DNA from: Bacteroidota bacterium
GTDB taxonomy: Bacteria > Bacteroidota > Ignavibacteria > UBA10030 > UBA8401
DNA: 49,819 nt
Assembly (NCBI GenBank): GCA_030679145.1
Contig: JAUXTU010000048.1
Location: 1-49,819 of the forward strand
Direction of reading: 5' to 3'
Under the pieces are notes generated by a model. That model was given only the letters and a program-made list of their open reading frames with translations, did no database searches and was not told where the DNA came from. Shown here in pieces: positions 17,428 to 34,433 of this stretch (position 1 is its first letter; each line of letters opens with the position of its first letter). Both the position numbers and the translations under genes were made by a program.

Positions 17428-18627
17428 TTACTTTTTCTTTCCAATATCTACACGAACCGTGTACACCTGAGGAGTTCCGGTTTTGTCCGTGCTGAATAAA
17501 ACATACGTTCCATTTGTTGAAAACCGCGGATGCGGATGCGAACCCTGACCTAACATACTCGATCCGTGACGAAATAGAATTTTCTTTTCCACAATGTTTT
17601 TCTCACCACGTGTAAGCAATGCCAAAAGCTGGTCATCATCATTCACCTGGTCTACAATCCAATGCTTGTTATCTTTGAAAATATTCTGATGTCCCGGCGA
17701 TACCTGCTCATAATAATTCTGGTTCACCTTATTATCTATCGATTGAAAACTCAGAAAATGTTTTCCCACATTTGAACCAATTCTGTATTTTGATATCGAA
17801 GAAATATATTTCCCGTCCGCACTCCATGTCTCGTGCGTGCGCTGCGTTCCATACACTTGTGCCACCGGACCTCCGTCTGTTCCATCAATATTCACCCACC
17901 ATACACGCACAGGAGCATGACCCACGAGCAATGGGCGCCCAAATTTTTCCCATTGCCAGCAATACATAATAAGGTTCGGATTAGCAGGATTTGCTTGCAC
18001 ATGACCTATATTAAAACCCATGTCCATAGTAATTTGTTTTAAAGACTTATCCTTAAGATTGAGTTTGTAAAGGGTGTAAGGTCCATACCCACAATCGTCA
18101 GGGTTAAATTCTTTTTTGTTTGTAGAAAAAACAAACCATTGTGCATCGCAAGTAACAGTAAATGATCCAACAGCAAATTTTTGTGGACTAAAATCATAAA
18201 CTTCTTCTGCTGAAAATGTTTCGGTGTTCAACTCACACAACATCGTCCCGTCAAAGTACCACAGTTTTTTGAATTGCGGTAGGTGATCCATATTCCTCAA
18301 TTCTTTTGCAGCAGTCATTTGTATCATCTCACCGGATTGCAGATGCAATTTATATAATTGTTTGCTCCCTGACCGGTCTGAATAAATTATAGCAGTCGTA
18401 TCATTGATGAATGACTCATTCGTAAAATACGGATGGCTGTTTTTGCCCGTTGATGTCCACTGTGTAATTTCACATCCGGTGGTATCATCTATCCAAGTTT
18501 TCTTTTCGGATGGCATTACTTTCCCAATATATCCTTGTTCTTTTTTTGACAAAGATAGTATACCGTCAGACGCATGACAGAAAACAATAATCTGAAAAGA
18601 TAGGGCAATAAATAATGAATACTTCAT
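17428..18627 (-). CDS. ogl: PL22 oligogalacturonate lyase
   Basis: About 399 residues from the ATG at 18627, which gives a clean signal peptide (MKYSLFIALS to HAS). In-frame starts at 18639 and 18693 are possible but add a polar leader. The body is a seven-bladed beta-propeller with repeated segments such as AIIYSDRSGSKQLYKL and YVLFSTDKTGTPQVY. GQGSHPHPRFS carries the His-x-His pair and upstream Gln that bind the metal in PL22, and HETWSADG matches another blade. It cleaves short oligogalacturonides by beta-elimination to unsaturated monomers. PL22 members are usually cytoplasmic, so the signal peptide here suggests periplasmic action. GH28 follows after 36 bp. Confidence 0.87.
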   Translation of the reverse strand: MKYSLFIALSFQIIVFCHASDGILSLSKKEQGYIGKVMPSEKKTWIDDTTGCEITQWTSTGKNSHPYFTNESFINDTTAIIYSDRSGSKQLYKLHLQSGEMIQMTAAKELRNMDHLPQFKKLWYFDGTMLCELNTETFSAEEVYDFSPQKFAVGSFTVTCDAQWFVFSTNKKEFNPDDCGYGPYTLYKLNLKDKSLKQITMDMGFNIGHVQANPANPNLIMYCWQWEKFGRPLLVGHAPVRVWWVNIDGTDGGPVAQVYGTQRTHETWSADGKYISSISKYRIGSNVGKHFLSFQSIDNKVNQNYYEQVSPGHQNIFKDNKHWIVDQVNDDDQLLALLTRGEKNIVEKKILFRHGSSMLGQGSHPHPRFSTNGTYVLFSTDKTGTPQVYTVRVDIGKKK

Positions 18628-18719
18628 TAATCTTGACATTTTAAAAAATCGATAATCAAATTTTATCTGCTTTAGAATACCATACGCAATCAACGGAAGG
18701 TATCTATTTGTTAGTATAG

Positions 18720-19538
18720 CTACAATTCCTTAACGCTTTCTAAACTTTCCGGCTGTTGTTTTTTTACATCCTTCAACAATGAATACGCATCCTGATCAAT
18801 AAAGAGTTTTGCATTTTTGTGCCTTCGCAAAATCGAAGCCGGGCATTGTATTGATATTGCATCGACGATAGATTGTTTTACTGCTTCTGCTTTTGAAGTG
18901 CCGGGCACAACAACGCTTAACGCCTGCGCTGAAAATAATGTCGGAATGGTTAATGTAATAGCAGATTTCGGGACATCTCGAAAGCTTTCAAAACATCCGT
19001 CATTCACTTGCTGCTGTCTGCACATATCATCAAGCAGAACAACTTTTACAACTTTCGGATCATTAAAATCGGCAACCGGAGGATCGTTAAATGCAATATG
19101 ACCATTTTCCCCAATACCCATGCAGACGAGATCAATTTCTTTTTCTTGAAGCAATTCAGCATACCGATCGCACTCTTTTTGAATATCAACAGTTTGCGAA
19201 TTGATGATATGCACATTTTTAAAGTTTACTTTTGAGAATATATTGTTTTGAAGATACTGACTGAATAATTGCGGTGATTTTTGCGGCAAACCAATATATT
19301 CATCCATATGAAATGCCGTAATTCGAGACCAGTCGATTGTCTTTTTTTTCGTTAACGAATCGAGCATTTCGTTTTGTGAAGGTGCTGCTGCAAACACCAC
19401 GCGCAGTTCATCTTTTATTTTTAATTTCGCAATTAAAATTTTCTCTGCATGGTCTGCTGCTTTTTCGCCTAACGCTTTTCTATCCTGTAATATCACCACC
19501 GATAGATTGTCTTTATAAAATTCAATTTTTGTTTCCAT
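18720..19538 (-). CDS. NagB/6-phosphogluconolactonase-fold sugar isomerase-like protein
   Basis: 272 residues of the glucosamine-6-phosphate isomerase fold. FHMDEYIGLP contains Asp79, equivalent to the NagB catalytic base. GIGENGHIAFNDPP contains His147 and Asp152, with Asn145 where E. coli NagB has an Asp. The N-terminal phosphate-binding loop, usually TGxTP, is replaced by AAAPSQNE (50-57). Annotation by homology would say glucosamine-6-phosphate deaminase, but the altered loop and position immediately before ogl, GH28 and GH105 make another sugar substrate possible. No signal peptide, so cytoplasmic. GAGAG lies before the ATG. Confidence 0.7.
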   Translation of the reverse strand: METKIEFYKDNLSVVILQDRKALGEKAADHAEKILIAKLKIKDELRVVFAAAPSQNEMLDSLTKKKTIDWSRITAFHMDEYIGLPQKSPQLFSQYLQNNIFSKVNFKNVHIINSQTVDIQKECDRYAELLQEKEIDLVCMGIGENGHIAFNDPPVADFNDPKVVKVVLLDDMCRQQQVNDGCFESFRDVPKSAITLTIPTLFSAQALSVVVPGTSKAEAVKQSIVDAISIQCPASILRRHKNAKLFIDQDAYSLLKDVKKQQPESLESVKEL

Positions 19539-19879: not shown

Positions 19880-21778
19880 TTACTTCATCCTTGTTACCGA
19901 AAATGCAACTTTCTTTTTAAAGCCATTAACCGGCGGCGCTACTGTCATGATTATCGGATATGCCTTAATTGCCGGGTACGGCGACCAATAATACTGTTCT
20001 CCTTCACCCACAATAAGTGTTACATCACCTTCAGAAATTTTAAATTGGAATGCGGCATTCGGATACGAAATTTCAACGGTCGTTGCATCAACCCGCCGCA
20101 TCACCATTCCCTCGTGATGCACAAATGGTTCAATAATGCTTACCGTATCCAGGTCGTCATGAAATACTACTTGAATGGATTTGGAATATGACGAATCCTT
20201 AAATAGATAATTGATTGAATATCCTATCCCGCCGGCAAGAAGACGTTTATCACGCAACTCTCCTTTTGTAAAAACGGAAAAATTACCATGCGATATTTCT
20301 TTTGACTGAAGCATTGCATCAAATTCATACAGATTAGTAAAATATCCCCGTTTGTTACTGTATTCTATGCGGGGTGTCATGCATGCAACCGAATCAACTT
20401 CCGGAAAATGCATTGGCTCAACGCGAATATATTTTGTTTGACTTGCGGCTTGTAGCATTCCAAAATTATCTGCCCATATCAGCGATGCTGCTCCGCCCGT
20501 TGGGCGATGCATATATTTGCTCTTATCCCTTTTCTCGCCATCTTTATAATTATATGCCGTAACGGTTGAGATGAAAGTCTGCGTTCGAACTTGAGCAACA
20601 TTCATGAAGGGGAGAACTTTCAACCATGGTTTCTCTTCCGTGGGAAGAGTTTCAAGCTTCCGCACCCCAGGCTGTTCTATGGAATATGCCATTGCCAAAT
20701 TTTTTGCTTTTGCAAATGTAGTATAGATACACGGCGGTTTCGACATTACACGGGAATAATGCGGTCCATATCCAATTAACCCATCGGTAATATTTTTTCG
20801 AATATTTTGCAGATTGGCAAATGCGGCTGCTGCATACCGCAAATCGGCGTTAGCAAGAAGTGCAAATAACACCTGTACACCATCCGAAGTGGCACTGCCA
20901 AAGGTTGTCCATTTATTGGACCGTGATCCCCACGAATCATCCATGATGCCATCCGGAAGAATGAACGAAAGATGTGTGCTCACCGAATGTCGAATAAGAG
21001 AATCGATAAAAGCATCGTTCGTTAGGCGAGCATAGTACGCCATTCCCCATAATGACATATCCATTTCATAACCCAGATCAGAACCTCGCTTTGTTCCGTT
21101 CTCGTATCCACCTTCACCATCAATAAACCCGTCATCATTCATTTTTGATGCAATCATATGTGCTAACCATCGGGCTTTCGTCAGATATCGTTCGTCCGGG
21201 AATAATGAATTTGCGCGAGCAAGACTTGCGGTTGATGTTGCACAATAATTAATGCTCGCAAATTCATGATTCATGACCGAAGTAATATAATCAGCCGCAC
21301 CGATGATCGCTTTTTTCCAGTTTACCTGTTCTACTTTCGATAGATGTTTTTCCATCAATGGCCATGCTTCCAAAAACATCAGCAGTTGGTCTGTCGTTGT
21401 TCCAGTCCACTCCTCAGGTGTTTCCTTCCAGCTTCCGTTTACCTCTTGCTTTTTAATCAGCCAATTGCCTGTTGCAACAGCCGCTTGTAAAAATCTTTTT
21501 TCGCCGGAAATTTGATACGCAACAACGAACGGATAGACCGATTCTGCCGCTCGTGTGTGCAGTATATTGCAGTGATAACATTGTATAGCTCCATAGTCTG
21601 CCGATTTTTTATCAGTGATCTGGCGTTTCTGCAGTGCATCCATTAAACTGACAATTGTTTGTCCGTATTCTTTTTTAAGATCAACAGTGGTTGCTTTTTG
21701 TTGAGCAACAAGAGTTGAAGCAACTGTTAATGTCAATAAAAGAAAAATCACAGAATGGAATATTTTTAGAATGTTCAT
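19880..21778 (-). CDS. Secreted (alpha/alpha)-toroid plus beta-sandwich protein, lyase-like, paralogue A
   Basis: 632 residues, not assigned to a family I recognise. The signal peptide spans about 1-25 (ends LVAQQ). Residues about 30-380 are helical with repeated hairpin pairs, and about 400-625 are beta-rich. This two-domain plan is used by polysaccharide lyases of the alginate/heparinase type. Blocks shared with the paralogue at 29695-31584 include CxxCNxLHTRAAE, KETPxEWTGTTxDQLL, FASINYC, DLGYEMDMSLWG, SWGSRxxKWTTFGS and SQTKYIRxEP. The invariant Tyr, His, Arg and Asn in these blocks are candidate catalytic residues. It begins 11 bp after the 1015-residue gene ends, so the two are probably co-translated. 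The enzyme role is an inference. Confidence 0.6.
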   Translation of the reverse strand: MNILKIFHSVIFLLLTLTVASTLVAQQKATTVDLKKEYGQTIVSLMDALQKRQITDKKSADYGAIQCYHCNILHTRAAESVYPFVVAYQISGEKRFLQAAVATGNWLIKKQEVNGSWKETPEEWTGTTTDQLLMFLEAWPLMEKHLSKVEQVNWKKAIIGAADYITSVMNHEFASINYCATSTASLARANSLFPDERYLTKARWLAHMIASKMNDDGFIDGEGGYENGTKRGSDLGYEMDMSLWGMAYYARLTNDAFIDSLIRHSVSTHLSFILPDGIMDDSWGSRSNKWTTFGSATSDGVQVLFALLANADLRYAAAAFANLQNIRKNITDGLIGYGPHYSRVMSKPPCIYTTFAKAKNLAMAYSIEQPGVRKLETLPTEEKPWLKVLPFMNVAQVRTQTFISTVTAYNYKDGEKRDKSKYMHRPTGGAASLIWADNFGMLQAASQTKYIRVEPMHFPEVDSVACMTPRIEYSNKRGYFTNLYEFDAMLQSKEISHGNFSVFTKGELRDKRLLAGGIGYSINYLFKDSSYSKSIQVVFHDDLDTVSIIEPFVHHEGMVMRRVDATTVEISYPNAAFQFKISEGDVTLIVGEGEQYYWSPYPAIKAYPIIMTVAPPVNGFKKKVAFSVTRMK

Positions 21779-21789
21779 ATAATTAGTAA

Positions 21790-24700
21790 CTATTGTAATG
21801 TGAATTCTATATTGTTGTTGACAAATGTAATTTCATTCTCGTTCATCTTTGTGCTCACCCGAATACGATATGTTCCTGCCTTAAATGGAAGACTAAATTG
21901 AACCGGTATAATCTTCGGCTCCAAATCAAGAGGCGCATTGAGTTGTTGTATTTGAGTTGTACTTAAGGAAATTGTTTTACTCCCTTCGATACGTTCCAAC
22001 GTTACTGTAATATCTTTTGCTTCTTTCGTTCCAATATTGTGTATCGGACAAGTGACCGTAACGTTTCCAGATTCTTTCCGATCTATTTGAAGATCGTTTG
22101 ACGTAACCGCAAGATCGCACATTACTTCGCTAACGGCAGGCTGGAAACTTACCGATAATTGCTTCACTTCAATCAATTCTTCTTTTCGCGGCAGCAGCGA
22201 AAGAGCAAAAGACGAATTACGGCGTTCAATAATTACTGTGTCGATTACTCTCGGAACATCAACAGTACCATCATTGTTCGCATCTTGTCCCTGCAAAAAT
22301 AAATATTTTCCGGCAGCAAGTTGTCCAAAAATAATCGATCCGCTCAACTTAGATTGTGAGTGATTGTAAACCCGTACTGCCATACCGCTTTGTTCAGTAT
22401 TGATGACGAAGGCAGAGAAATCCGAACTGAATCCTTTCCAAGTAATTGGTGGAAATGGATAGAATGAATCCACGAGGGGCGAACCAAGATACATCGATTC
22501 AAGCAAGGTTGCTCCATTATCTCTTTGCTCGCGCAAATCTCGAATTTCTATTCGGTCAGTATAATATCCCTCGGTAGTCAGCAGTGAAAAATTATTCTCA
22601 ACTTTTTGCAGTGCACTGCGCAAATGTTGTACTATCGATTCATCATTTCCAGAAAGACGAAACCGCATATAGGATGATCCGGATGTCATCAAAAGTTTGT
22701 CGTACGTTGTGTTATGAGTAATGCCTCTCCATAGTTCTGCCGTTCCCCAAAAATTACTTGATCCCTGCAAAATCTTTACTGCCCATGCTTCCGAACCAAC
22801 CGCAGCATCTTTTACATTTTTGCCTGAATATTTATTAATCAACTCAAGAGCATATTCTGTTGGTTCAAAATATTTCTTGTCGGAAAATAATAATCCGGCT
22901 GAAAGCAATTGTGCCTGCATATCGGGTTCACCGTCAAAGTCATAATAACTCCAAAACATACCGGGGTGATGCCAACTGTCTGAAAATCCGCCAATGGCAT
23001 CATCCTGAAAACGGATTCCTGCCGGAACAATTCCTTTCGGCTTCCCTTTATCCGTCCGCATACAATCTTCCAGCCATGAATCGCTCCATTCTTTTACTAG
23101 AGAAAGCGTTGTTGGATGTTGATTGTACCATGCAACCCATCGGACTGCTTTTACTGTTCGCGTATTCATCGAAACATCGCAACTTTTCGGAGCCGTAGTA
23201 TCCATTGCTGTAGAAGAATACCAACTGGAACGGAAATGCCGATGACCTAAGGGTGTAATACCAGTCCACAAATCGTTCATCATCTTTACACTTTGCATGC
23301 ATCGTTCAACATAGATTGGGTTTCCATAATCGAATCCGATCATCATTGGCTGTGTATCGGCAATTGGCTCCGAAGAATGTTCAACATCCCTTACATATTT
23401 TGAAAATCCTTTGTAGACATATTCGCTCGTCCACATTCCATCAACTAACCGTTTCATTCCCTTTAATGCAATTGGGTCATCAATGGCTACGCGGGCAAAT
23501 GGCCACCAGCGAAGCATTTCACAATCATCATCATACTTCCCGCCGAACTCTCCATTTTCCGCCTGCCGCTTTTCTGTCCAATAATAAATAATGTCTAACA
23601 TTCGTGATGTTAGTTTGTGTTGAAGAAATGCCCATTGCGGAACGTCAGCAGGTGTTGTGTCAATTTTTTCTTTTACAGGAAATTTTCCCAGATAGGTTTT
23701 AAGAAGCGGATAATTGCCATAGTACTTCGCTAATTGCAAAAGAAAGTTTTCTGCCTTTATAATTTGAAGTTTGAAATGCTGTTCCACCCAAACCCAGTAC
23801 GCAGTAATTCCTGCCGACCATGTTCCTAATACCCATAAAGGATGGCCGGACACAGAAGCGATCTCTTCAAATGCAGATCCAGCAATCTCCGTATTTTGGA
23901 AAATTCCTGTCTGATTGATTTCTGAACTCCAACCCCAACCTCCCGCTTTACGCAGTTGATCTCCTTGTATGTAGAGATCAGCAAGATGAATACTCAAATC
24001 ATTTCGGAAAGATGGATGTTCCATTTTCTCTTCTAAAAGAAGTGAGCGTCCATATTCAACCAAAGCGCGCGGAGTCTGCGCATTTAGCTGTGATGCCATG
24101 GCAAATAATAAATGTGCTTTCTCTATTCGATAGGCATCGGGAATTGCATCAACAATACGCGATGCTTCAACAATATCACCGGCATTGATTAATTGCAATG
24201 CCAGTCCTCCATTCGGCGCAAGAAGATTTTCTCTTTTTCTGTACACACCTTCCGTAAATTCTATTGGACCAATGTCGTCTGAAAAAAGCATAATAGAAGC
24301 AAGTGTGCTTGGTTGACCAGCAGCGTTAATTTTAAAAACCAGCGCGCCATTTTCTGCCTTTACACGAATAAGAAATTTCCAAATTGCAGGGGGATTGCCA
24401 CCTTCAGTTTCCATGGAATATGAAATACACGAATCCTTAATCACACGTTCATTAACACTAATTGCTCCTTGCCAAACCGCCTTCTCGCCGCCAGCCATCA
24501 CAAGCTCTGCAGCATAAAATCCATTCGGAACATCAACTCGAAATTCAACTGCTCCTTTGTTTGTAATTCCGTTCGCATGTTCATTATTGATTGGATGCTC
24601 TGTCGATTTCGAGATATAACCTGTACAACCTTTTGTTAAAAGTCCATACCCAATTTTTTTTGTGTAGAGAGAAGTTGGCGATACAGAAATCGTATTCTTA

Positions 24701-24837
24701 TTAGAAGCGACCGATGTGTTGTTAAAATCGAGCGTACGTGTGCGGAATATTTCTTCGGATCGGCATTCCGTTCCTATGAAAAAAATAACGGCAGCCACTG
24801 TCAGAATCGCAATATTATTTATTTTTAAATTGATCAT
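21790..24837 (-). CDS. Large secreted multidomain protein of unknown function (malectin-like, helical, CARDB-like)
   Basis: 1015 residues; I do not recognise the central domain. A signal peptide covers about 1-27. Residues about 30-185 resemble malectin/galactose-binding modules of pectin-active enzymes (VSPTSLYTKKIGYGLL, VEFRVDVPNGFYAAELVMAG). Residues about 200-800 are helical and rich in Trp and His (YDDDCEMLRWWPF, FSDSWHHPGMFWSYYDFDGEP), suggesting an (alpha/alpha) barrel. A DANNDGTVD calcium-loop-like stretch lies near 860. The C-terminal 130 residues fit a CARDB/NPCBM-like beta domain with the typical ending AGTYRIRVSTKMNENEITFVNNNIEF. The context (ExuT upstream, lyase-like paralogue A downstream) points to periplasmic polysaccharide processing. 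Confidence 0.6.
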   Translation of the reverse strand: MINLKINNIAILTVAAVIFFIGTECRSEEIFRTRTLDFNNTSVASNKNTISVSPTSLYTKKIGYGLLTKGCTGYISKSTEHPINNEHANGITNKGAVEFRVDVPNGFYAAELVMAGGEKAVWQGAISVNERVIKDSCISYSMETEGGNPPAIWKFLIRVKAENGALVFKINAAGQPSTLASIMLFSDDIGPIEFTEGVYRKRENLLAPNGGLALQLINAGDIVEASRIVDAIPDAYRIEKAHLLFAMASQLNAQTPRALVEYGRSLLLEEKMEHPSFRNDLSIHLADLYIQGDQLRKAGGWGWSSEINQTGIFQNTEIAGSAFEEIASVSGHPLWVLGTWSAGITAYWVWVEQHFKLQIIKAENFLLQLAKYYGNYPLLKTYLGKFPVKEKIDTTPADVPQWAFLQHKLTSRMLDIIYYWTEKRQAENGEFGGKYDDDCEMLRWWPFARVAIDDPIALKGMKRLVDGMWTSEYVYKGFSKYVRDVEHSSEPIADTQPMMIGFDYGNPIYVERCMQSVKMMNDLWTGITPLGHRHFRSSWYSSTAMDTTAPKSCDVSMNTRTVKAVRWVAWYNQHPTTLSLVKEWSDSWLEDCMRTDKGKPKGIVPAGIRFQDDAIGGFSDSWHHPGMFWSYYDFDGEPDMQAQLLSAGLLFSDKKYFEPTEYALELINKYSGKNVKDAAVGSEAWAVKILQGSSNFWGTAELWRGITHNTTYDKLLMTSGSSYMRFRLSGNDESIVQHLRSALQKVENNFSLLTTEGYYTDRIEIRDLREQRDNGATLLESMYLGSPLVDSFYPFPPITWKGFSSDFSAFVINTEQSGMAVRVYNHSQSKLSGSIIFGQLAAGKYLFLQGQDANNDGTVDVPRVIDTVIIERRNSSFALSLLPRKEELIEVKQLSVSFQPAVSEVMCDLAVTSNDLQIDRKESGNVTVTCPIHNIGTKEAKDITVTLERIEGSKTISLSTTQIQQLNAPLDLEPKIIPVQFSLPFKAGTYRIRVSTKMNENEITFVNNNIEFTLQ

Positions 24838-24863
24838 GTAATTTTATATTCTATGCGCAGCTG

Positions 24864-26174
24864 TTAAATTTTCCGTAAAATGCCTTTTCCAGTTTCACCG
24901 GAATTACGAACTAATAGTAATACGAGAATTCCACCAACAAACGGTACTATGCTTGCTGCTATCAAAATCGGTTCAAACGAATATTGATCGGAAAATTTTC
25001 CAATTAAAAATGTGGAAATGATCGTTAGAATACCGGCGGCAGTTCCGCTCAGTCCGCTTACGGTTGCAACCGAATTGCTTCTATAAATATCAGATGGCAG
25101 CACAAGTGCAATAGTTGAAAATGCGGCATACGCAAATGTTGATATTGCCAATAATCCTGCAATTGCAAAAAGGTTTGAAGTGTAGATTGTCGGTATCAAC
25201 ATCAGCATGCCAATTGCGCCAAAAATGACAACTGCCTTTCGCGCACTCCCCACCGACCATCCTTTTCCAATTAACCAGCTCGAAAATCCTCCGCCGGCAA
25301 AATTTCCTAGATCTGCTGCAACAAATGGAATCCAAAATGCTATCAACGTGTCTTCCGGTTTAAATCCTTTTGACACGAGTAAAATCATCAGCCAATCTGC
25401 AATAAAAAACCAAACAGGATCTGTAAATGAACGTGCAATAATTACGCCCCACGTTTGTTTTAACTTTAAAAGTTCAACCAATTTCGGCCGCGGTAAATTT
25501 TTATCTTCGTCTCCCGCACTCTCTACCCTATCTGCTAAGATCATTTGTTTTTCTTCATCAGAAATTCTTGGATGATCTTCCGGCGAGTGATACATCATTC
25601 GCCAAACGATGATCCAGAAAAATCCTAATGTCCCGGTAAGAAGAAACGCCGGCTGCCAGCTTCCAAAATAAGAATAGAGCCAAATAACAAATGCTGGCGC
25701 TATAGCTGCACCAATTGAAGAACCGCTGTCGAACAACGCTACTGCCCATCCTCGTTCTTTTTTAGGAAACCATTCTGAAACGGCTTTTGTTGCAGCGGGC
25801 CAATTTGCCGATTCTCCAAAACCTAACAGCAAACGAAAAAATGCAAAACTTCGCAAACCTGTTGCTAACGATGTGAGCATTGCAATAATTGAATAACTTG
25901 CAACTGTTAGTGTTAATCCAACACGCGTACCAATCCGATCAACTAATCGCCCTAACACCGTTTGACCAATTGCATACGCAACACGAAACGAAATAACAAT
26001 AAACGCATAATCTTCATTCGTCCAGCTATATTGTTTTTTCAGAAATGGTGCTAATGCCGATAGAGTTTGTCGATCGATGTAATTTATTACCGTTGACGCA
26101 AAAAGCATTCCGCCAATCCACCATCGCAGATTTTTGATCGGTTGTTTGTTCATTTGTTTTAAATTAGTGGGCAT
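24864..26174 (-). CDS. exuT: MFS hexuronate transporter (ExuT-type), second copy
   Basis: 436 residues with about 12 transmembrane segments. It shares [44 protein letters not shown] and [12 protein letters not shown] with the ExuT group and is a clear paralogue of the 249-1526 gene, although diverged in the second half. AAGGAAA precedes the ATG. It lies between two genes for secreted carbohydrate-active-looking proteins, so it probably imports a uronate or a related acid released by them. The substrate may differ from that of the first copy. Confidence 0.88.
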
Positions 26175-26200
26175 TCAATATTTCCTTTTCCCGCAATGTG

Positions 26201-27451
26201 TTAATGATCGAATTTATAATGATAGTATTCCGCCAAAAACCGAAGACCAAACGCTGTTCCTACATCCCGCTGTAATATTCGATGTTTTCCGCTTTTAATA
26301 TTCATGCGTAAATTATAGAACCCACCCGCAAGATTTGGATCGGGATGATCTTTCGCATATCGATTGTTGACAACCCACCGAAATGATTTTTCAATATTTT
26401 CTTTAAACTCATCGCCCACTCCGAGTTTCAGCAACTTTATCCATACTATTCCTGCAAAGGATGAAGTGGATCCGGACGGAGAGTTTTCTATCGATGTTCC
26501 ATCGATAAGATTTTCATAATATATCGTACCATCTTTTTTCTGATATTTTGTATAGAATTTCATGGTCTTTTTTGCAGCATCAAGATATTTTTTGTCTCCG
26601 GTCATTTCATATCCTTTAATCAACGATTCGGCATACCAAATATTAAACCGAGGATGAAAACTATTTCTCTCTTTATTATTTGGAGTGTAATCCATCCACA
26701 GTCCTTCAGGTCCTTGTTTCTCAACTAAACTATTGCAAAGATTGATAAATACTTTTTTATATTTTTCATTTTTCGTGTATTCATACATATCATAGTATAA
26801 ATATCCTTCGTTGTTCGGACGTGCAACATCGGTAAGCACCTGTTCATTTTTCTCGGGCCAAAAATCGCTCCACGTTTTCTGTACATCACCCGTTACGGGA
26901 TCTACAAAATCATAAAACATTCCCTCGTTGGGAAGATACATGTGTTGAAGTGCCCATTCTCCGGCTGTTGTAGCAACGGAAGCATATTTTTCGTTCTTTG
27001 TTATTTTCCACAGTTCAAAAATTCCATTCGCACCATCGCATAACGTTGTAAAACAAATTTTTTCAATGCCTGCTCCATGGATTGTTTTCATCATTCCTTT
27101 TAACTTCGGATGATCTTTTATTTCTAAACTGATCCACCAATTTCCGGCGCGGACGGCGTTATCCAAATATTTTTTATTGCCGGTAATTTTGTATGCTTCT
27201 ACCAATCCATAGATGATTTGTCCGGTGTGCCACGCCGGCTCATAGGGAGACCACTTACCATCTATGATATTGTAATCACCACGCGCCATTCCCTTTTCAT
27301 CAAGAATTACAGTGCTTGCATATGTTGCACCGTCTTCAATAACCGTGCGAATCATATTCTTTAATGAATCATTGTCCGATGCTGGTGAGATTGACACAGA
27401 AAGAAACGATAGAAAAACCAATGCAAAATATATTTTAAATAATTTCTTCAT
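26201..27451 (-). CDS. Secreted (alpha/alpha)-barrel protein, glycosidase-like, family not recognised
   Basis: 416 residues. The signal peptide is about 1-24 (ends SPAS). The rest is built of helical hairpins with TGNKKYLDNAVRAGNWW-type repeats at about 90-110, 150-170, 215-235 and 285-305, the texture of (alpha/alpha)6 enzymes such as GH88/GH105 or epimerases. Conserved-looking aromatic and acidic patches include YEPAWHTGQIIYGL, DVARPNNEGYLYYDMYEY and HPRFNIWYAES. I cannot assign catalytic residues or a family. AAGGAAAA precedes the ATG. The esterase gene ends only 1 bp before this start, so they are translated together. Confidence 0.6.
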   Translation of the reverse strand: MKKLFKIYFALVFLSFLSVSISPASDNDSLKNMIRTVIEDGATYASTVILDEKGMARGDYNIIDGKWSPYEPAWHTGQIIYGLVEAYKITGNKKYLDNAVRAGNWWISLEIKDHPKLKGMMKTIHGAGIEKICFTTLCDGANGIFELWKITKNEKYASVATTAGEWALQHMYLPNEGMFYDFVDPVTGDVQKTWSDFWPEKNEQVLTDVARPNNEGYLYYDMYEYTKNEKYKKVFINLCNSLVEKQGPEGLWMDYTPNNKERNSFHPRFNIWYAESLIKGYEMTGDKKYLDAAKKTMKFYTKYQKKDGTIYYENLIDGTSIENSPSGSTSSFAGIVWIKLLKLGVGDEFKENIEKSFRWVVNNRYAKDHPDPNLAGGFYNLRMNIKSGKHRILQRDVGTAFGLRFLAEYYHYKFDH

Positions 27452-27452
27452 A

Positions 27453-28454
27453 TTATTTTTCCTTCAAATATTTATCAAAAAATTCCTTTGTATACTTCAG
27501 TGTTTTAGTAAACCAAGGATTAAACAGCCAAAACGAATGTGGTGAATCAGAAAGTGTGTGGATTGTCGAATAAATTTTATATCTCGTTAATTGAGCAATC
27601 ATCTCATCTCGTCCAACATGATATCGTTCTAACGAGCTATTGATGAATGCGATCGGCACCGATTGCCGGGATACAAAATTTATTGGTGATGCTTCTTTCC
27701 ATACATCAGGCCGCTCTTGATATGAATAACCGAACCAAAGTGTGCAGGCAGATGGCTTTGCTGAATTTGAATCCCGCCCACTTTCCTCTGGATGTGTTAA
27801 ATCTACTGGACCGTCAACATTTACAACTGCTTGAACATCGCTTGAATAATTTTTGTTAGCGTCCGGTCCTTCAAATTGTTGAAGACCATTAGTCACACCA
27901 AGAAAAGATGCCAGATGCCCTCCCGCAGAACAACCATACACGCCAATGTTTGCAGTATCAATTTCATACTCCAACGCGTGCATACGCAGCCATCGAACCG
28001 CCGATTTTAAATCAAAAATTGCAGCAGGATATTTTGATTCGGGAGAAAGCCTGTATTCAACAACAGCAGTAACATAACCATTTGCAGCTAAATGTTTTGC
28101 CATCGGTATTTCCATCGAACGATCACCCGATCGCCATCCCCCGCCATGGATAAGAATAATTGCCGGATTTTTTTTGACAGATTTTGAAGGATGAAAAAGA
28201 TCTAAATGAAGTTCGCGTTTGCCAATTTTTGAATACACTAAATTAAAATTAGATTCTAATCCAGAGAGATTGCTTGTATCTACTCTTGTTATCGAAGGAT
28301 AATGTTTCATCACCTTCTTCTCAGCGCTTTCAATGGTATAATAATTATCTCTTGGAATTGAATGAATGGTAACCGCATTTTGTGCGAAAACAACACTACT
28401 CGCTAATATTCCAAAATAGAAAATATGTTTTATACAGTTATTCAATGAATTCAA
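27453..28454 (-). CDS. Secreted alpha/beta-hydrolase esterase (BD-FAE/acetyl-esterase-like)
   Basis: 333 residues. The signal peptide ends near VVFAQ at 25. HGGGW (103-107) forms the oxyanion hole, GCSAGG carries nucleophile Ser176, and SPHSFW carries His306. The acidic member is probably Glu276 in NSSLER, where Asp is more usual. Such esterases remove acetyl, methyl or feruloyl groups from plant polysaccharides; the bond here is unknown. There is no suitable ATG. The frame opens at a TTG at 28454, with a second TTG at 28445 better spaced from the AGGA upstream, so translation starts at a rare TTG in either case. It sits between glycerate kinase and the alpha-barrel gene. Confidence 0.8.
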   Translation of the reverse strand: MNSLNNCIKHIFYFGILASSVVFAQNAVTIHSIPRDNYYTIESAEKKVMKHYPSITRVDTSNLSGLESNFNLVYSKIGKRELHLDLFHPSKSVKKNPAIILIHGGGWRSGDRSMEIPMAKHLAANGYVTAVVEYRLSPESKYPAAIFDLKSAVRWLRMHALEYEIDTANIGVYGCSAGGHLASFLGVTNGLQQFEGPDANKNYSSDVQAVVNVDGPVDLTHPEESGRDSNSAKPSACTLWFGYSYQERPDVWKEASPINFVSRQSVPIAFINSSLERYHVGRDEMIAQLTRYKIYSTIHTLSDSPHSFWLFNPWFTKTLKYTKEFFDKYLKEK

Positions 28455-28492
28455 TCCTAATAATATTTTCGCTTAACAGCCGGTGTATCACT

Positions 28493-29695
28493 TCACATTA
28501 ACAACATTGATTTGGAAATTCTATTTGCCTGCAAATCGGCTGTACCAAAGCACTGCTCAATGCCAAGGGATATTCCTTTTTCAAAATTTTCCATTGCTTC
28601 CGCAGATGATTTAAATAATGGAATAAATTCAAAAACTTTCGGCACATTATTATCACACACCGGAAATTGAATTTCACTGCTCCCAACTAACATGATTATT
28701 TTTTTGTTGCGCGCCTGTGCTTCTTTTATAACAATTCCGGTTGCCTTGTTCATAAAACTTTGTTCATCAAATTTTCCTTCACCCGTAATAACAACATCAC
28801 AATCATCTAATAATTTGCCCAACTTCAATGTATCCATAAGAAATTGCTGAGATCGGGTTATCCGCACATCTGAAATAAGGGAAAGTCCAAGAGAAACACC
28901 GCCGCCTGCACCAATTAGTTTCATTTTAAATTCAAATCCATGATCCCGCTCTAGAATAGAAAGAATGTTAATGACACCAACCTCAAGCATTGTAATATCA
29001 TTATAGTCTGCCCCTTTTTGTGCCGCAAATATTTTACTCGTGCCGGTGTCGCCGTATAATGGTATTTCAACATCAAGAACAACTTCAACCGCAATCCCAA
29101 TTTTTCGTGGCAGCACAATCTTGGCAGCACAAAAATAATTTAACGGAATTGCATCGAGCGATTTACCATTTTTGTCGAAGAGTTGCAGCCCAAAGACATC
29201 GCACAGCCCCAACCCTAAATCATTAATCCCTGTTCCACCAATGCCAATAATAATTTTTTTAATCTCTGGGTTTCTCTCCTGAAGATGAAGAATAAATTCA
29301 CCAAGATTCCGAGAATTTAACAGTGTCGGTTTTCGTTTTGCTTTCGGAATTTTTTTCAAACCGATAAAATCGGCAACTTCAACGTACGCTGTTTTTGAAA
29401 CCGCATCATATCCAACACATACCTTTGTCCGCGAATTATTGTAGCATTTTCTGTTTTCGATAAATTGCAAATGAAAATGAAAATTTCGTCTGCACACTTC
29501 AAGAAAACCATCTCCACCATCGGAAAGCGGAAATTTAGTTACATCTAAATACCCGATCTGTACAAGTTTTTGTGCAATCAATTCCGATGCAACTGTGGAT
29601 GAAGCACATTCTTTATAACTGTTCGGGGCTACAAGAATCCTTGTATTCCTATTGAACATTTCAGAACCGTCATTATGATGAGGTTGATAGTTCAT
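28493..29695 (-). CDS. Glycerate kinase (GarK/GlxK family)
   Basis: About 400 residues. APNSYKECASS near the N-terminus, PLSDGGDGFLEV, GIGGTGINDLGLGL, GAGGGVSLGL and GEGKFDEQSF are the family signatures. It phosphorylates D-glycerate using ATP, usually to 2-phosphoglycerate. I place the start at the ATG at 29695, which overlaps the upstream stop as TGATG, a sign of coupled translation. The ATG at 29659 (MFNRNTRILVAP) is an alternative and would give a more typical length. In uronate and aldarate breakdown, glycerate arises from tartronate semialdehyde or glyceraldehyde. No aldarate enzymes are present, so its substrate source is unclear. Confidence 0.88.
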   Translation of the reverse strand: MNYQPHHNDGSEMFNRNTRILVAPNSYKECASSTVASELIAQKLVQIGYLDVTKFPLSDGGDGFLEVCRRNFHFHLQFIENRKCYNNSRTKVCVGYDAVSKTAYVEVADFIGLKKIPKAKRKPTLLNSRNLGEFILHLQERNPEIKKIIIGIGGTGINDLGLGLCDVFGLQLFDKNGKSLDAIPLNYFCAAKIVLPRKIGIAVEVVLDVEIPLYGDTGTSKIFAAQKGADYNDITMLEVGVINILSILERDHGFEFKMKLIGAGGGVSLGLSLISDVRITRSQQFLMDTLKLGKLLDDCDVVITGEGKFDEQSFMNKATGIVIKEAQARNKKIIMLVGSSEIQFPVCDNNVPKVFEFIPLFKSSAEAMENFEKGISLGIEQCFGTADLQANRISKSMLLM

Positions 29696-31584
29696 CACTT
29701 AACAACGGAAATACGATAGGTTATTGTTTGTTCATATCCGTCAGCAGGTGCAGTCACTCTTATTTCTAACGGTTCGCATTTCATTGATGGGAAAGGAAAA
29801 AGAAACCGCGACGCTTTTTCTGCTCTTCCAATTGAAAAATCTCCGCGAAGTATTTCAACCGCATACGTTTGTTTCGATCCGCGGATGATAACTTTTTTTG
29901 CATTAACATATTCAAATGTCGTTCCCGGCTCTTCAACAATCGGTTCAATAATTTTTACTACCGGCTGTCTGTCGTGGAAATTTAATATGACAGTTTTTTC
30001 AATCGCATCATCAAACAACAAATGGGTAAGCGTGTATGCAACGCCTCCCTGGTACCATCGTTCATCTTTCATTTCACCAACTGTCGTAACAATTGCAACG
30101 GTATCAGCATTGGAGCGGGCTGTTACTCGTCCTTCAAATTCATATAAATTGGTAAAAAATTTCCCGCTGTCGCTGAATTCGATTCTCGGCGTTAGGCAAA
30201 TTACGGTATCGTTTACCGCCGGCATATGGATCGGTTCGCCGCGAATATATTTTGTTTGGCTCGACGTTTGCAAAAAACCATGATCCATTGCCCAAATATT
30301 ACACACCGAACCACCCGTTGGATGTTGATTGTACTGACCGTTGTTTGTGTTGGCTAAATCTTTATATCCATATCCCGAAATAGTCATCATAAAATTCTTT
30401 GAACGTGCCAGCGCAACATTCACAGTAGGATAAAATTTCATCCAGCCGATTTCTTCGGATGGTAACAACGGCATTGATGTTTCTGTTTGAATTCCAAGCA
30501 TAAATGCGAGAGAAAGATTTTTTGCGCGGGCAAATGTTGGGTAATTACAAAGTTGGCTTGGAAACAAAGTCCAGAATTGCGGACCATTTCCAATCATTCC
30601 ATCCTTTATCATTGTACGAAGGTAACGCAAATTTTTTACCGCGGCGGTAACATATCGCAGATCTTCGTTCGCAAACATACTAAAAAGAATTTGCGGACCA
30701 TCAGCAGTTTTACTTCCAAATGTTGTCCATTTATAACATCGGCTTCCCCACGATGCATCAATTGCACCATTGGGGTAGATGAAAAAAAGATTTTTTTGCA
30801 GAGATTTTTTTACCATCTCTTCAACAAAGATGTCCTTACTTATTCGTGCATACAAACCTAATCCCCACAACGACATATCCATTTCATATCCAAGATCAAC
30901 GCCATATTTTACACCATGAGCGCGAGCCGCTTCACCCTGAATAAAACCTGCACCATCCATCTTCGCCACGGTCCACCGCGCAAGTTTTTTTGCTTTCACC
31001 ATATATGCTGAGTCGGGAATAAGTTGAAATGTTGCCGCCAATACTGCCGCCGATGTTGGGCAGTAATTTATGCTTGCAAAATCCGGACTCATATATTTCA
31101 CTAAATAATCTGCAGCCCCTTTCATTGATTTCATCCATTGCGCTTGGTCATCGCGTGAAAGTGATTTTTTTAGAATCGGATATGCATTAACAATCATAAG
31201 AAGTTGGTCAGCAGTTGTTCCTGTCCATTCCCACGGCGTTTCTTTCCATTGCCCTTCTGGGAACTGTTGTTTGATCAGCCAGTTGGTTACATAAATTGCT
31301 GCATCGCGATATTTTTTATCACCCGTTTGTTGATACACAACCGCGAAGGGAAATACCGCTTCTGCTGCTCGCGTATGAAGCACATTGCATTCGGGGCATG
31401 TTAATGCTCCAAAATTCGGATCTGTTTTTTCTTTTATTTGCAGATCGAGCAGCGATTTTGAAAGAAGTGCAACTGTCTCGTAACATTCTTTTTTTAACGA
31501 TACTTTTTCTAACGGCTGTGCAATCAGAGAAAGAGATGTTGCACAGAAAAGAAGTATTATTTTAAATTTGTTTGAATATTTCAT
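29695..31584 (-). CDS. Secreted (alpha/alpha)-toroid plus beta-sandwich protein, lyase-like, paralogue B
   Basis: 629 residues, colinear with paralogue A (19880-21778) along its whole length. The signal peptide ends about residue 22. The CxxC unit here reads CPECNVLHTRAAE. KETPWEWTGTTADQLL, FASINYC, DLGYEMDMSLWG, SWGSRCYKWTTFGS and SQTKYIRGEP are retained. The C-terminal beta domain (LTPRIEFSDSGKFFTNLYEFEG onward) is also conserved. Retention of charged and aromatic residues in two diverged copies argues for an enzyme rather than a scaffold. It is translationally coupled to glycerate kinase. No family name can be supported from sequence alone. Confidence 0.6.
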   Translation of the reverse strand: MKYSNKFKIILLFCATSLSLIAQPLEKVSLKKECYETVALLSKSLLDLQIKEKTDPNFGALTCPECNVLHTRAAEAVFPFAVVYQQTGDKKYRDAAIYVTNWLIKQQFPEGQWKETPWEWTGTTADQLLMIVNAYPILKKSLSRDDQAQWMKSMKGAADYLVKYMSPDFASINYCPTSAAVLAATFQLIPDSAYMVKAKKLARWTVAKMDGAGFIQGEAARAHGVKYGVDLGYEMDMSLWGLGLYARISKDIFVEEMVKKSLQKNLFFIYPNGAIDASWGSRCYKWTTFGSKTADGPQILFSMFANEDLRYVTAAVKNLRYLRTMIKDGMIGNGPQFWTLFPSQLCNYPTFARAKNLSLAFMLGIQTETSMPLLPSEEIGWMKFYPTVNVALARSKNFMMTISGYGYKDLANTNNGQYNQHPTGGSVCNIWAMDHGFLQTSSQTKYIRGEPIHMPAVNDTVICLTPRIEFSDSGKFFTNLYEFEGRVTARSNADTVAIVTTVGEMKDERWYQGGVAYTLTHLLFDDAIEKTVILNFHDRQPVVKIIEPIVEEPGTTFEYVNAKKVIIRGSKQTYAVEILRGDFSIGRAEKASRFLFPFPSMKCEPLEIRVTAPADGYEQTITYRISVVK

Positions 31585-31611: not shown

Positions 31612-31734
31612 AGATATCTGAAAAAGTCATTGCGAGGAGCGAAGCGACGAAGCAATCTTCACAAAACAAAAGGCAAGATTGCTTCGACAAAAAACGTCTC
31701 GCAATGACATTGATGTGAAATTTTTCAGATATCT
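31612..31734. repeat. 123-bp MITE-like palindromic element with terminal inverted repeats
   Basis: AGATATCTGAAAAA (31612-31625) is perfectly inverted at 31721-31734. Inside, GTCATTGCGAG (31626-31636) pairs with CTCGCAATGAC (31698-31708), and CGAAGCAATCTT (31648-31659) pairs with AAGATTGCTTCG (31675-31686). The right terminus shares its last base with the stop codon of the metallophosphoesterase gene at 31734-31736. It encodes no protein. A diverged relative lies at 131-240. It could fold into a long hairpin and end transcription or protect mRNA. Confidence 0.85.
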
Positions 31735-33077
31735 TATTTTGCTAATTCAAATGAATCGTACAAAACACCAGTTGCCGTAAAAGAATTGTATTTTAGTTTA
31801 CCGCCATCAATAGAAATTACCTGGAACAGTTGAACATTCCCGCCGACTTTTGCCATCACGTCTGTATATTTTGAATTGACAGTGTACATTTTTGGACCAG
31901 AAACGGAGACAACATATACTGTTCCTTGATCGCTCTCTTTTACTTTTGCACCATTTTTTATTTTATAACTTCTTCCATAGGAATGGTCATGCCCTGTTAA
32001 CACGAGATCAACATTGTATTCATCAAAAATAGATTGGAATGCGGTCCGTGTTTCAAGATCATCTCGATCTCGTCCCATTGAATACAGCGGATGATGAAAT
32101 GCCACAACTGTCCATTTGTTTGGATTATTAAATAACAACTTTTTCATCCATTCTGCCTGTTCAAGCAGCCGGTCATTTGTATTCATCATAATGAATCTCA
32201 CGCCTTGATAATCCACATAGTATGATACTTCCTCATATCCGCTAATGCCGTTTTCGGGAAGCACATATTGCCCACGCCATGTTGGCGGCAGCAGATTTGA
32301 TCGTTCTTTCTTTCCATTTTTTTTACGGACTATTTTCCCACCCTCCATTTTGAAAGCAAGGTCATGATTTCCGGGGACAAGTATGCTTGGTGTCATTCTA
32401 AGAATAAATCCTGCGGCATAATAAAAATCATTAATCTGTTTATCTTCCGGTTCGGATGTAATATCGCCGGTGAATAACCAGAATTTTGCATCGGGAGCTT
32501 TTTTAAACGCTTCGCGGAAAACACGGGAGCAATGTTCTTTGATATTGTCTTGTGGGTCCCCTAAAAACACAAATGTAAATGGAGCAGCAACCTTTTCTGC
32601 TGTTGTAAATTGATTCCATTCGCTCCACACAGAATCACCGCCAACACGATACGCATACAGCGTATTTGGTTTCAATCCGTCAATAACGGCATTGTAAAAA
32701 CCTGCCGTCTCTCCTTTGTCTAACGGTATGCGTTCTGACTTTGCGCTGATGGTTCTCGCTTTTTCTGCAAACGTTATCCACACTTCGGCTTCAGCAACTT
32801 GCACTTGAGGATTTTTTACTTCATCCGTTGTTCGCCATGCAACACCCATACTTTGATATGGTTCAGTTGTAAGATTTAGAATTATTCTTTCCGGTGTTAT
32901 GGTGGTCGTATATTGCTGCCCATAATTATGAGTGAAAAAAATAATTGTACTAAAGATGATTAAACCACCCCGATGCCAGCATTGTGGAATTCTGCCATTT
33001 AAACCTTGCGAAGGTTTTATGACAATTGCAGATAACCTTTGCAAGGTTGTTTCAATGATTAAAAAAAGTTTTTTCAT
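31734..33077 (-). CDS. Purple acid phosphatase-like metallophosphoesterase, copy 1
   Basis: 447 residues. Residues about 60-160 form the Fn3-like N-terminal domain of purple acid phosphatases (PERIILNLTTEPYQSMGVAWRT). The calcineurin-type metal site follows: GDPQD 173-177, TGD 203-205, GNHD 236-239, then AFHHPLYS and TGHDHSYGR. The N-terminus is peculiar. A 47-bp palindromic repeat (33002-33048) encodes residues 10-26, placing a polar stretch between MKKLFLII and the hydrophobic LIIFSTIIFF at 39-48. The export signal may still work with this extended n-region. It is a paralogue of the next gene. Its role in a uronate locus is unclear; it may take phosphate from sugar phosphates or nucleotides. 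Confidence 0.82.
   Translation of the reverse strand: MKKLFLIIETTLQRLSAIVIKPSQGLNGRIPQCWHRGGLIIFSTIIFFTHNYGQQYTTTITPERIILNLTTEPYQSMGVAWRTTDEVKNPQVQVAEAEVWITFAEKARTISAKSERIPLDKGETAGFYNAVIDGLKPNTLYAYRVGGDSVWSEWNQFTTAEKVAAPFTFVFLGDPQDNIKEHCSRVFREAFKKAPDAKFWLFTGDITSEPEDKQINDFYYAAGFILRMTPSILVPGNHDLAFKMEGGKIVRKKNGKKERSNLLPPTWRGQYVLPENGISGYEEVSYYVDYQGVRFIMMNTNDRLLEQAEWMKKLLFNNPNKWTVVAFHHPLYSMGRDRDDLETRTAFQSIFDEYNVDLVLTGHDHSYGRSYKIKNGAKVKESDQGTVYVVSVSGPKMYTVNSKYTDVMAKVGGNVQLFQVISIDGGKLKYNSFTATGVLYDSFELAK
33002..33048 (-). repeat. 47-bp nested palindromic repeat, copy 3, in frame within a gene
   Basis: On the minus strand this reads AACCTTGCAAAGGTT, then a 17-base centre beginning ATCTGCAA, then AACCTTCGCAAGGTT. 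The centre shares most bases with copy 1 (2910-2956), so the two are the same element and not just similar arms. It is translated as residues 10-26 of the phosphoesterase gene, including RLSAIVIKPSQG. Copy 1 read on the plus strand would give the similar RLSANFVKPSQG. Confidence 0.88.
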
Positions 33078-33120: not shown

Positions 33121-34368
33121 TCATTTTATTAATTCAAAAGTATCATAAACTGCACCGGTAGCTGTATATGCAGAGAACGAAAGTTTTCTGCCATTGATGG
33201 AAACCACCTGATATAATTGCACGTCTGTTCCAAATTTATCCATAAGATTGCTGTACAGTGGATTAATGCGATACGAATCTGAACCGCTGTTCGAAGTTAC
33301 ATACACTGTCCCTTTCGCAGTCGCATTCACTTTTGCACCGTTCACCAACGTTGCACTGCGGGCATAAACATGATCGTGTCCCTGCAAAACAAGATCAATC
33401 GAATACTTATCGAAGACTTCTAAAAATGCATCGCGTGTTTTTCGCTGATCTCGAGTTTTGCTCATTGAATAGAGCGGCTGATGAACGGTTGCAATTACCC
33501 ATTGCTCAGATTTTTTCGAAAGAACACTGTCCAACCATTTTGCCTGCTCCTGTAGTTTTTCATTTCCATTAAGCATCACAAACCGAACACCTTGATAGAC
33601 GAAAGAATAGGACGTTTCTTCCAATCCCATTATTCCATTTTCCGGAAGTGTAAAATGCGGCTTCCATGAATCAATCAACATCTCGCTCGATATTTTTTCC
33701 CCGCTGCTGTCTTCCTTCCCGTATTCATGATTTCCCGGTACCATAACAGAAGGCACGTAAGAATGAATAAAATTTGATGCATAGAAAAATTCGTACCACA
33801 AGGAATCGTATTGGGGTCTGTCGATTAAATCTCCCGAGAAAAGCCAAAATTTTGCTTCGGGATGTTTTCTATTTGCTTCCCTCGCAATTCGAGGATAGAA
33901 TGTTTTTAACCCATGCTGAGCGTCGCCAAAGTACAAAAATGCAAATGGTGCTGTTTTGTTTTCGGCAGTACCAAATTGATTCCATTCACTCCAGATTGAA
34001 TCTCCTCCGACTCGATAGCAGTATTTTGTATTTGGCTGAAGTCCGTTAAAAATTACAGAATATTGATACACTGATTTTCCATTATCCAACACCAACCGTT
34101 CTTTGTTTGCTTGAAAATGTTTTGCACTCGAAGTAAATTCAATCCACTCAGAAGTTTCAGAGATTTGTGCGCTCGGATTGATCGTTTCAACAATCGTTCG
34201 CCACGTTACCGCAATACTTGTTGAAGGCTGGGTTGTTAGATTTAGAATAATTCGGTCGGGAATTTTATCGCTGTTAGTTTTTTGCGCGGCTTCTACGCCG
34301 GACAATAAAAGCGACAGAAGGGACACACACACCGGTAATCTTAAATATATTTTTTTTTGAATTTTCAT
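33121..34368 (-). CDS. Purple acid phosphatase-like metallophosphoesterase, copy 2
   Basis: About 415 residues from the ATG at 34368, which gives a standard signal peptide (MKIQKKIYLRLPVCVSLLSLLLSGVEAA). The frame opens earlier at an ATG at 34434 that overlaps the symporter stop as TAATG, but that would bury the signal sequence. The Fn3-like domain (RIILNLTTQPSTSIAVTWRT) is followed by metal motifs FGDAQH, SGDLID, GNHEYG, VHQPLYS and GHDHVYAR. GNHE replaces the GNHD of copy 1. Periplasmic phosphoesterase; substrate unknown. 43 bp separate it from copy 1, so the pair is a tandem duplication. Confidence 0.82.
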   Translation of the reverse strand: MKIQKKIYLRLPVCVSLLSLLLSGVEAAQKTNSDKIPDRIILNLTTQPSTSIAVTWRTIVETINPSAQISETSEWIEFTSSAKHFQANKERLVLDNGKSVYQYSVIFNGLQPNTKYCYRVGGDSIWSEWNQFGTAENKTAPFAFLYFGDAQHGLKTFYPRIAREANRKHPEAKFWLFSGDLIDRPQYDSLWYEFFYASNFIHSYVPSVMVPGNHEYGKEDSSGEKISSEMLIDSWKPHFTLPENGIMGLEETSYSFVYQGVRFVMLNGNEKLQEQAKWLDSVLSKKSEQWVIATVHQPLYSMSKTRDQRKTRDAFLEVFDKYSIDLVLQGHDHVYARSATLVNGAKVNATAKGTVYVTSNSGSDSYRINPLYSNLMDKFGTDVQLYQVVSINGRKLSFSAYTATGAVYDTFELIK

Positions 34369-34433
34369 TTTGAAACTTGTCATATTTTGGATTTTGTATT
34401 GCAGCCATAGCGGTGCGAATAAATCATGCTGCA

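Follow-up and report, generated by a model that had tools for sequence, protein, structure and literature searches.

The window analysed here is the whole 49,819-nt stretch of contig JAUXTU010000048.1 from a Bacteroidota bacterium (assembly GCA_030679145.1). It contains one long minus-strand run of carbohydrate and uronate catabolism genes, including a gene for UxaE, and within this run lie the genes of the two related proteins that are the subject of this work, P0001 and P0002:

19880..21778, minus strand: P0001, 632 amino acids; exported (by eye), toroid plus beta-sandwich; likely uronate dehydratase of clade A of the P29_PDnc/PL37 family
29695..31584, minus strand: P0002, 629 amino acids; second member of the P29_PDnc/PL37 family, clade A

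The original prediction, made from this DNA alone, had proposed a pair of paralogues at 19880-21778 and 29695-31584; both open reading frames proved exact, their products being identical at 269 of 621 residues (43%; 554 bits by BLASTP). All five of the conserved blocks it had described were found in P0001 and P0002 (CYHCNILHTRAAE/CPECNVLHTRAAE, KETPEEWTGTTTDQLL/KETPWEWTGTTADQLL, DLGYEMDMSLWG, SWGSRSNKWTTFGS/SWGSRCYKWTTFGS, and SQTKYIRVEP/SQTKYIRGEP), and the export it had suggested would fit a hydrophobic N-terminal stretch which, judged by eye, resembles a signal peptide in both proteins. It had also matched the pair to no named family, and as far as Pfam and NCBIfam are concerned we agree, the profile search returning no domain-wide match for either protein. 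P0002 did reach 22.1 bits against Pec_lyase (PF09492; cut-off 22), while P0001 showed no match; as this was a single at-threshold match over 35 residues, the Pec_lyase identity was dropped. A Pfam scan of nine relatives (six from alignment A2, plus L037, L069, and L045) gave no domain-scale name, and a sequence search of the PDB returned short matches only, the best (expect value, E, 0.018) being to a mannanase over 26 positions.

The structure of P0001, the member of the pair covered by our model, was predicted with AlphaFold2 using a 58-row alignment (predicted local distance difference test, pLDDT, 95.4; predicted template modelling score, pTM, 0.92). The model displays helices at residues 34-367 and mostly beta strands at 385-630, bearing out the earlier guess of a toroid followed by a beta-sandwich. 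Foldseek placed the PL35 lyase GAGase II first (8khv; E 5.5e-16, template modelling (TM) scores 0.57/0.61, root-mean-square deviation 7.1), followed by GAGase VII, PL33, and, in fourth position, human dermatan-sulfate epimerase (6hzn_A; E 2.2e-13, TM 0.61 on the query), and then by alginate, chondroitin, hyaluronate, and heparan lyases. The toroid/sandwich lyase matches also include members of PL15, PL17, PL8, and PL12. The nearest full-length folds are lyases, in keeping with the polysaccharide lyase architecture that had been suggested. With VIA-align, where the rows mostly cover P0001 residues 28-374, 2-epimerases and GH76 also rank high for the toroid alone (Z about 26), as does GH88. GH154-type structures (9O4U, 9NWF, and 8OI4) were not among the 50 fold-match rows listed, which says nothing either way. 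Because lyases, an epimerase, 2-epimerases, and GH76 all rank among the fold matches, the modelled fold by itself does not assign a function to P0001, the toroid being a shared scaffold.

The pair is, however distantly, related to a studied enzyme. The Formosa agariphila protein CDF79930.1 is labelled PL37 in the literature (PMC8511951; PMC11395424) and is taken by Baumgen et al. as P29_PDnc, which is reported to be an oligosaccharide dehydratase of ulvan degradation (PMC8511951). It acts on glucuronic or iduronic acid linked to 3-sulfated rhamnose (GlcA/IdoA-Rha3S) and thereby creates the unsaturated terminus on which GH105 works; when seven ulvans were tried, no lyase activity was reported (PMC8511951). 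Eight variants of P29_PDnc are described (D248N, E254Q, E255Q, D269N, D290N, R300E, K303I, and Y306F), with D248N, the arginine variant, and K303I given as inactive (PMC8511951). A profile hidden Markov model (HMM) built from 34 rows of clade B alone, the clade of the family to which P29_PDnc would belong, gave scores of 361.0 bits for P0001 and 336.5 bits for P0002, compared to 21.9 bits for the best non-family protein. A set of 23 full-length relatives from Flavobacteriaceae was chosen by profile alone (some are also in alignment A4), with start codons set by a length rule and not by numbering. In nine of these, all eight mutated residues of P29_PDnc recur with their native numbering unchanged. 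Four A4 rows out of 58, including L069, likewise match at all eight positions, while at most three of the eight were matched among 898 other proteins (871 neighbours and 27 window genes). Gene order is consistent with this placement, since ten of the 58 clade B loci contain a PL28 ulvan lyase gene, which in nine of the ten lies immediately beside the family gene (e.g., L069, Algibacter amylolyticus); in Formosa agariphila, the PL37 protein CDF79930.1 and the PL28 protein CDF79931.1 carry consecutive accessions (PMC11395424). Given the clade-B-only HMM scores and the eight-position numbering match, P0001 and P0002 are, by sequence comparison, full-length homologues of P29_PDnc. The family can therefore no longer be called unrecognised, as the original prediction had it. 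Biochemical knowledge of it comes from a single member, whose activity is disputed.

Within this family, a 59-row unrooted tree, in which row L024 is very long, separates clade A (23 rows, including both window proteins) from clade B (36 rows) by a long branch with 100/100 support. Clade B rows come from Flavobacteriaceae and other Bacteroidota, Planctomycetota, Verrucomicrobiota, Bacillota, and others. Mean identity is 46% within clade A, 50% within clade B, and 26% between the two (24 and 57 rows, respectively), so that clade A, from sequence comparison, is a well-separated subfamily at about 26% identity to the known clade, and it is this subfamily that is new. In the open-licence literature we found no study of a clade A member, clade A accessions not having been used as queries. 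P0002 branches with Fulvivirga/Flammeovirgaceae (99/99) and P0001, weakly, with a Pedobacter/Chitinophagaceae group (83/62); as the two sit in different branches, a recent local duplication was rejected. Such pairs occur outside the window as well: Draconibacterium sediminis (L064) also carries two copies, of clade B (9959-11869 and 14953-16866), which lie 3 kb apart and belong to different clade B branches.

The relatives were drawn from several searches. Among 60 genomes searched by kinship with P0002, the family was present in the window's own genome only, while in a sample of 395 genomes of the phylum, 13 gave a match of some kind (seven complete or interrupted by the end of a contig, and six short). 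A species-genome scan with an 8-row alignment yielded 178 confirmed loci, of which the best 80 were retained. No relatives were found in viral contigs or in a first genome scan, and among plasmids a single record, from Persicobacter, carried one.

The three P29_PDnc residues with inactive variants can be located in both window proteins:

21077..21079, minus strand: codon of P0001 Asp234, equivalent to P29_PDnc Asp248, the proposed catalytic base (PMC8511951)
20921..20923, minus strand: codon of P0001 Arg286, equivalent to P29_PDnc Arg300 (PMC8511951)
20912..20914, minus strand: codon of P0001 Lys289, equivalent to P29_PDnc Lys303, the proposed catalytic acid (PMC8511951)
30895..30897, minus strand: codon of P0002 Asp230, equivalent to P29_PDnc Asp248
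30739..30741, minus strand: codon of P0002 Arg282, equivalent to P29_PDnc Arg300
30730..30732, minus strand: codon of P0002 Lys285, equivalent to P29_PDnc Lys303

We did note that the mechanism figure of PMC8511951 uses residue numbers six lower than elsewhere in that paper. Equivalents of D248, R300, and K303 are invariant in all 58 rows of A4 (24 of clade A and 34 of clade B, window proteins included) and are kept in all 23 full-length profile-selected relatives (the fragment L126 excluded). The remaining mutated positions vary: E254 is Asp in 8 of the 24 clade A rows, E255 is Met in all 24, Y306 is replaced by Thr, Gly, Ile, Val, Cys, or Leu across all 24, and D269 and D290 are variable in both clades. 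Further invariant residues, in P0001 numbering, are Asn177, Tyr178, Tyr237, Lys359, Tyr450, and Glu454.

A genomic link to GH88/105 was also observed. Of 13 genomes with the family, 11 carry a GH88/105 gene scoring above 200 bits no farther than 20 kb from the family gene, where uniform placement would give 0.25; in five genomes the distance is at most 10 kb, against an expectation of 0.12. This null is naive because sugar genes cluster. In the window genome, exactly one GH88/105 (PF07470) exceeds 200 bits, and it lies in this cluster, separated from P0001 by about 4 kb (15790 to 19880). Another contig carries a KduI-family gene. The GH88/105 link supports an unsaturated uronide as the product.

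Taken together, homology, the fold, three conserved residues, the GH88/105 link, and the KduI-family gene lead us to propose, with a probability of about 0.62, that P0001 and P0002 are exported non-reducing-end uronate 4,5-dehydratases forming part of a divergent P29_PDnc/PL37 subfamily, clade A. By analogy with P29_PDnc, dehydration rather than lysis is the most likely activity of clade A, and the residue roles that follow are putative. Acting on a uronic acid that terminates an oligosaccharide at its non-reducing end, the two enzymes would eliminate water between C4 and C5; following the P29_PDnc proposal, Asp234 of P0001 would abstract the C5 proton, Arg286 would neutralise the carboxylate, and Lys289 would protonate the leaving 4-OH. 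The resulting 4,5-unsaturated end would be hydrolysed by the co-encoded GH88/105, and the 5-keto-4-deoxyuronate released, a compound that can be handled by the KduI/KdgK route, would then enter that route.

Several points weigh against this proposal. The DLGY motif sat in the genome-scan pattern, so the invariance of D248 is partly by construction, yet all 23 profile-selected relatives keep it; none of the scan patterns included R300 or K303. Clades A and B differ at eight near-fixed positions, one of which, E255, is among those mutated in P29_PDnc, and the window proteins share only 24-26% identity with five P29_PDnc-like proteins. The placement of P29_PDnc in clade B derives from residue numbering and gene order, not from its own sequence, and the 2018 CDF79930 construct covers residues 15-622 (PMC6168547), somewhat short of the 637-640 amino acids of the matching relatives. 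The inactive arginine variant appears in one place as R300E and in two others as R230 (PMC8511951); we have taken it as R300. CDF79930 was first described as an endolytic ulvan lyase that also degrades chondroitin and heparan sulphate (PMC6168547). As for the genomic partner, two of the 13 family-bearing genomes lack a strong GH88/105 copy, no copy is seen in the available flanks of 14 of the 26 clade A loci, and the link fits a lyase and a dehydratase equally.

The main rival is that the two proteins are true polysaccharide lyases, endo or exo, cleaving a uronate polymer by beta-elimination, as the original prediction had proposed. The nearest full-length folds and the compatible GH88/105 partner agree with this, and a Pfam scan covering 16 of the 33 main window genes revealed no lyase other than the PL22-like protein. 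The literature counts PL37 as a family of ulvan and glycosaminoglycan (GAG) lyases, a PL37 protein of Bacteroides eggerthii is cited as GAG-active, and degradation of ulvan, chondroitin, and heparan sulphate has been reported for CDF79930 (PMC6168547), although Baumgen et al. failed to reproduce its lyase activity with seven ulvans (PMC8511951). The statements here on PL37, PL35, and GAG lyases draw on PMC11395424, PMC12915356, PMC6994673, PMC12088678, and PMC11262172. The PL35 lyase GAGase II is described with Asn192, Tyr246, and His401, the last in the beta-sheet domain, and a similar beta-domain His is given for PL17, PL21, and PL39. In the beta domain of the family (P0001 residues 385-632), no His column exceeds 33 of 58 rows, counting columns with at least 50 letters, so that the PL35-type His is without a conserved counterpart at the level of the alignment. 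We regard a lyase as unlikely, though it is the alternative to be taken most seriously. Of the new lyase or hydrolase family originally envisaged, the hydrolase is without support, the family is not new, and the re-examined activity of P29_PDnc is dehydration and not depolymerisation; the lyase is what stays as a rival.

That the pair are uronate epimerases, or use this scaffold for some other non-eliminating reaction, feeding GH88/105 or GH2 indirectly, seems to us very improbable. The match to dermatan-sulfate epimerase noted above and the C5-proton abstraction chemistry common to epimerisation and elimination would favour it; homology and residue conservation, however, tie the family to P29_PDnc, a reported dehydratase, and an unsaturated product is what the linkage to GH88/105 suggests. 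A toroid-fold glycoside hydrolase family (e.g., GH76/GH88-like), suggested by the VIA-align ranking for the toroid alone, is hardly credible, given that the toroid is a common scaffold, that the best full-length matches are lyases, and that no GH family reaches its cut-off for P0001 or P0002.

The neighbouring genes bear out the uronate-linked context originally described, as GH28, PL22-like, GH88/105, and UxaE genes were all found beside P0001 and P0002. Counts below refer to 26 clade A loci (window excluded) and 58 clade B loci, some with incomplete flanks: of the 27 clade A and 58 clade B stretches, 18 and 43, respectively, reach at least 19.9 kb. The features of the window are as follows:

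7911..9182, minus strand: 423-amino-acid protein among uronate genes; no Pfam match at E 0.001
9221..10300, minus strand: KdgK-like sugar kinase (by eye), which would take 2-keto-3-deoxygluconate (KDG) from the unsaturated uronate route
14021..15790, minus strand: GH88/105 unsaturated-uronyl hydrolase, 266 bits; predicted consumer of the product
15787..17391, minus strand: GH28, rhamnogalacturonidase/polygalacturonase-like, 62.8 bits; below NCBIfam equivalog cut-offs
17428..18693, minus strand: PL22-like protein, 36 bits (cut-off 30)
18720..19538, minus strand: NagB-like, glucosamine-6-phosphate deaminase family; above Pfam and below NCBIfam equivalog cut-offs
21790..24837, minus strand: 1015-amino-acid protein whose family has no name, 11 bases ahead of the P0001 start; in 9/26 clade A and 0/58 clade B loci
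26201..27451, minus strand: 416-amino-acid alpha/alpha-barrel-type protein; in 12/26 clade A and 0/58 clade B loci
31734..33077 and 33121..34434, minus strand: two tandem purple-acid-phosphatase-like proteins (Pfam match on the first, the second clustering with it); in 7/26 clade A and 0/58 clade B loci
36137..37924, minus strand: GH2 beta-glucuronidase, 584 bits (NCBIfam equivalog cut-off 544)
39276..40823, minus strand, and 44007..45761, plus strand: proteins with type IX secretion C-terminal sorting domains, flanking the TonB receptor; relatives of the first occur in 4 clade A loci
40881..43814, minus strand: TonB-dependent receptor (by eye); relatives in 12/26 clade A and 4/58 clade B loci

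The 1015-amino-acid protein showed no domain-wide Pfam or NCBIfam match, and its model is modest (pLDDT 74.1), with a CBM35-like N-terminal piece (E about 0.003 against the CBM35 modules 2w47 and 2w1w), a helical middle, and no informative whole-chain match. The 416-amino-acid protein is 49-58% identical to its relatives and passes the Pfam cut-offs of GH88, GH127, C5-epim_C, and GH76 together (31 to 50 bits); because four families exceed their cut-offs at once on partial stretches, we have assigned it to none.

Clade A loci contain GH28 (11), GH20 (11), the 416-amino-acid type (12), the TonB receptor (12), GH88/105 (12), the 1015-amino-acid type (9), NagB-like (7), the purple-acid-phosphatase type (7), LacI (6), GH2 (5), and GH84 (2), with markers of ulvan use being scarce (sulfatase 2, PL28 0, GH78 1). 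In clade B loci, sulfatase (31), GH88/105 (18), GH78 (17), GH2 (16), GH3 (15), and PL28 (10) are found, while GH28, GH20, GH84, and NagB are all at 0. Gene order is partly shared among clade A loci, with the family gene, GH28, GH88, the 1015-amino-acid type, GH20, and the 416-amino-acid type following one another in two Chitinophaga loci (L034 and L047), and NagB, GH88, the 1015-amino-acid type, and the family gene in two Pedobacter loci (L025 and L026). An ulvan-type neighbourhood (PL28, sulfatases, and GH78) was not encountered in the 26 clade A loci, and no sulfatase-family match lies on the window's contig; elsewhere in the genome there are three sulfatase-family stretches, one clear (117.9 bits) and two barely so. 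The loci of clade A are thus poor in sulfatases and equipped to handle hexosamine and uronate, which points to an unsulfated substrate containing both; this is probably a polymer of hexosamine and glucuronate, perhaps also with galacturonate. Pectin is favoured by the GH28 and PL22-like genes, and the clade's GH20/GH84 and NagB-like genes argue against it. Chondroitin genes have been remarked near firmicute homologues (PMC6168547). In our scan of the neighbours of three Bacillota members (L052, L061, and L070), no named chondroitin gene was found, which neither confirms nor refutes the remark, since 10 of 29 neighbour proteins were scanned. Directly upstream of one of these Bacillota members lies a two-domain DUF2264 protein (PF10022 and PF20938; L061:2690-4582).

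On a more tentative note, clade A might open an undescribed route for an unsulfated hexosamine/uronate polysaccharide, in which the dehydratase, GH88/105, GH20/GH84, GH28, and the 1015-amino-acid accessory protein would act in turn on the chain end. The two window copies might then serve different uronates or linkages, and PL37 and the former GH154 dehydratases might form one toroid-based reaction class. Chain-end uronate dehydration is a recently found way to trim acidic polysaccharides (P29_PDnc in 2021; BcGDH in 2025). If the dehydratase assignment of P0001 and P0002 is correct, the occurrence of clade A in Bacteroidota and Verrucomicrobiota with its own gene set would extend such dehydration beyond ulvan and chondroitin, provide a name for proteins without one in Pfam or NCBIfam, and call the PL37 lyase label into question. 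A new lyase family is not to be claimed from the pair.

Compared to known systems, P0001 shares a toroid and an antiparallel beta-sheet domain with PL35 GAGase II (8KHV), PL33, PL15, PL17, PL8, and PL12, and has invariant Asn and Tyr residues in its toroid as in PL35-type lyases, an equivalence taken without superposition. It differs from these in its identity of about 10% in structural alignment, in lacking a conserved beta-domain His, and in having no sequence match. The closest known system is P29_PDnc (CDF79930.1), with which the pair shares full-length homology through clade B, the toroid and sandwich, the three residues with reported inactive variants, and a GH88/105 partner. Unlike clade B proteins of the P29_PDnc type, where an RRxF-type N-terminus is common, the window proteins display ordinary signal-peptide-like N-termini (by eye). 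Clade A is accompanied by GH28, GH20, NagB-like, 1015-amino-acid, and 416-amino-acid partners without PL28, and near-fixed differences separate it from clade B (e.g., D130/F, M241/E, Y352/H, and P459/Q). In its predicted reaction and its pairing with GH88, the pair also resembles the beta-glucuronate dehydratases BcGDH and BT_3677, formerly GH154, which are described as unrelated in sequence to P29_PDnc (PMC12269599). The residues given for BcGDH (Arg78, Asn177-Trp178, Tyr229, Arg285, and Tyr289; PMC12269599) follow an order similar to that of Arg76, Asn177-Tyr178, Tyr237, Arg286, and Lys289 in P0001, a likeness that, compared by numbers only, offers a lead.

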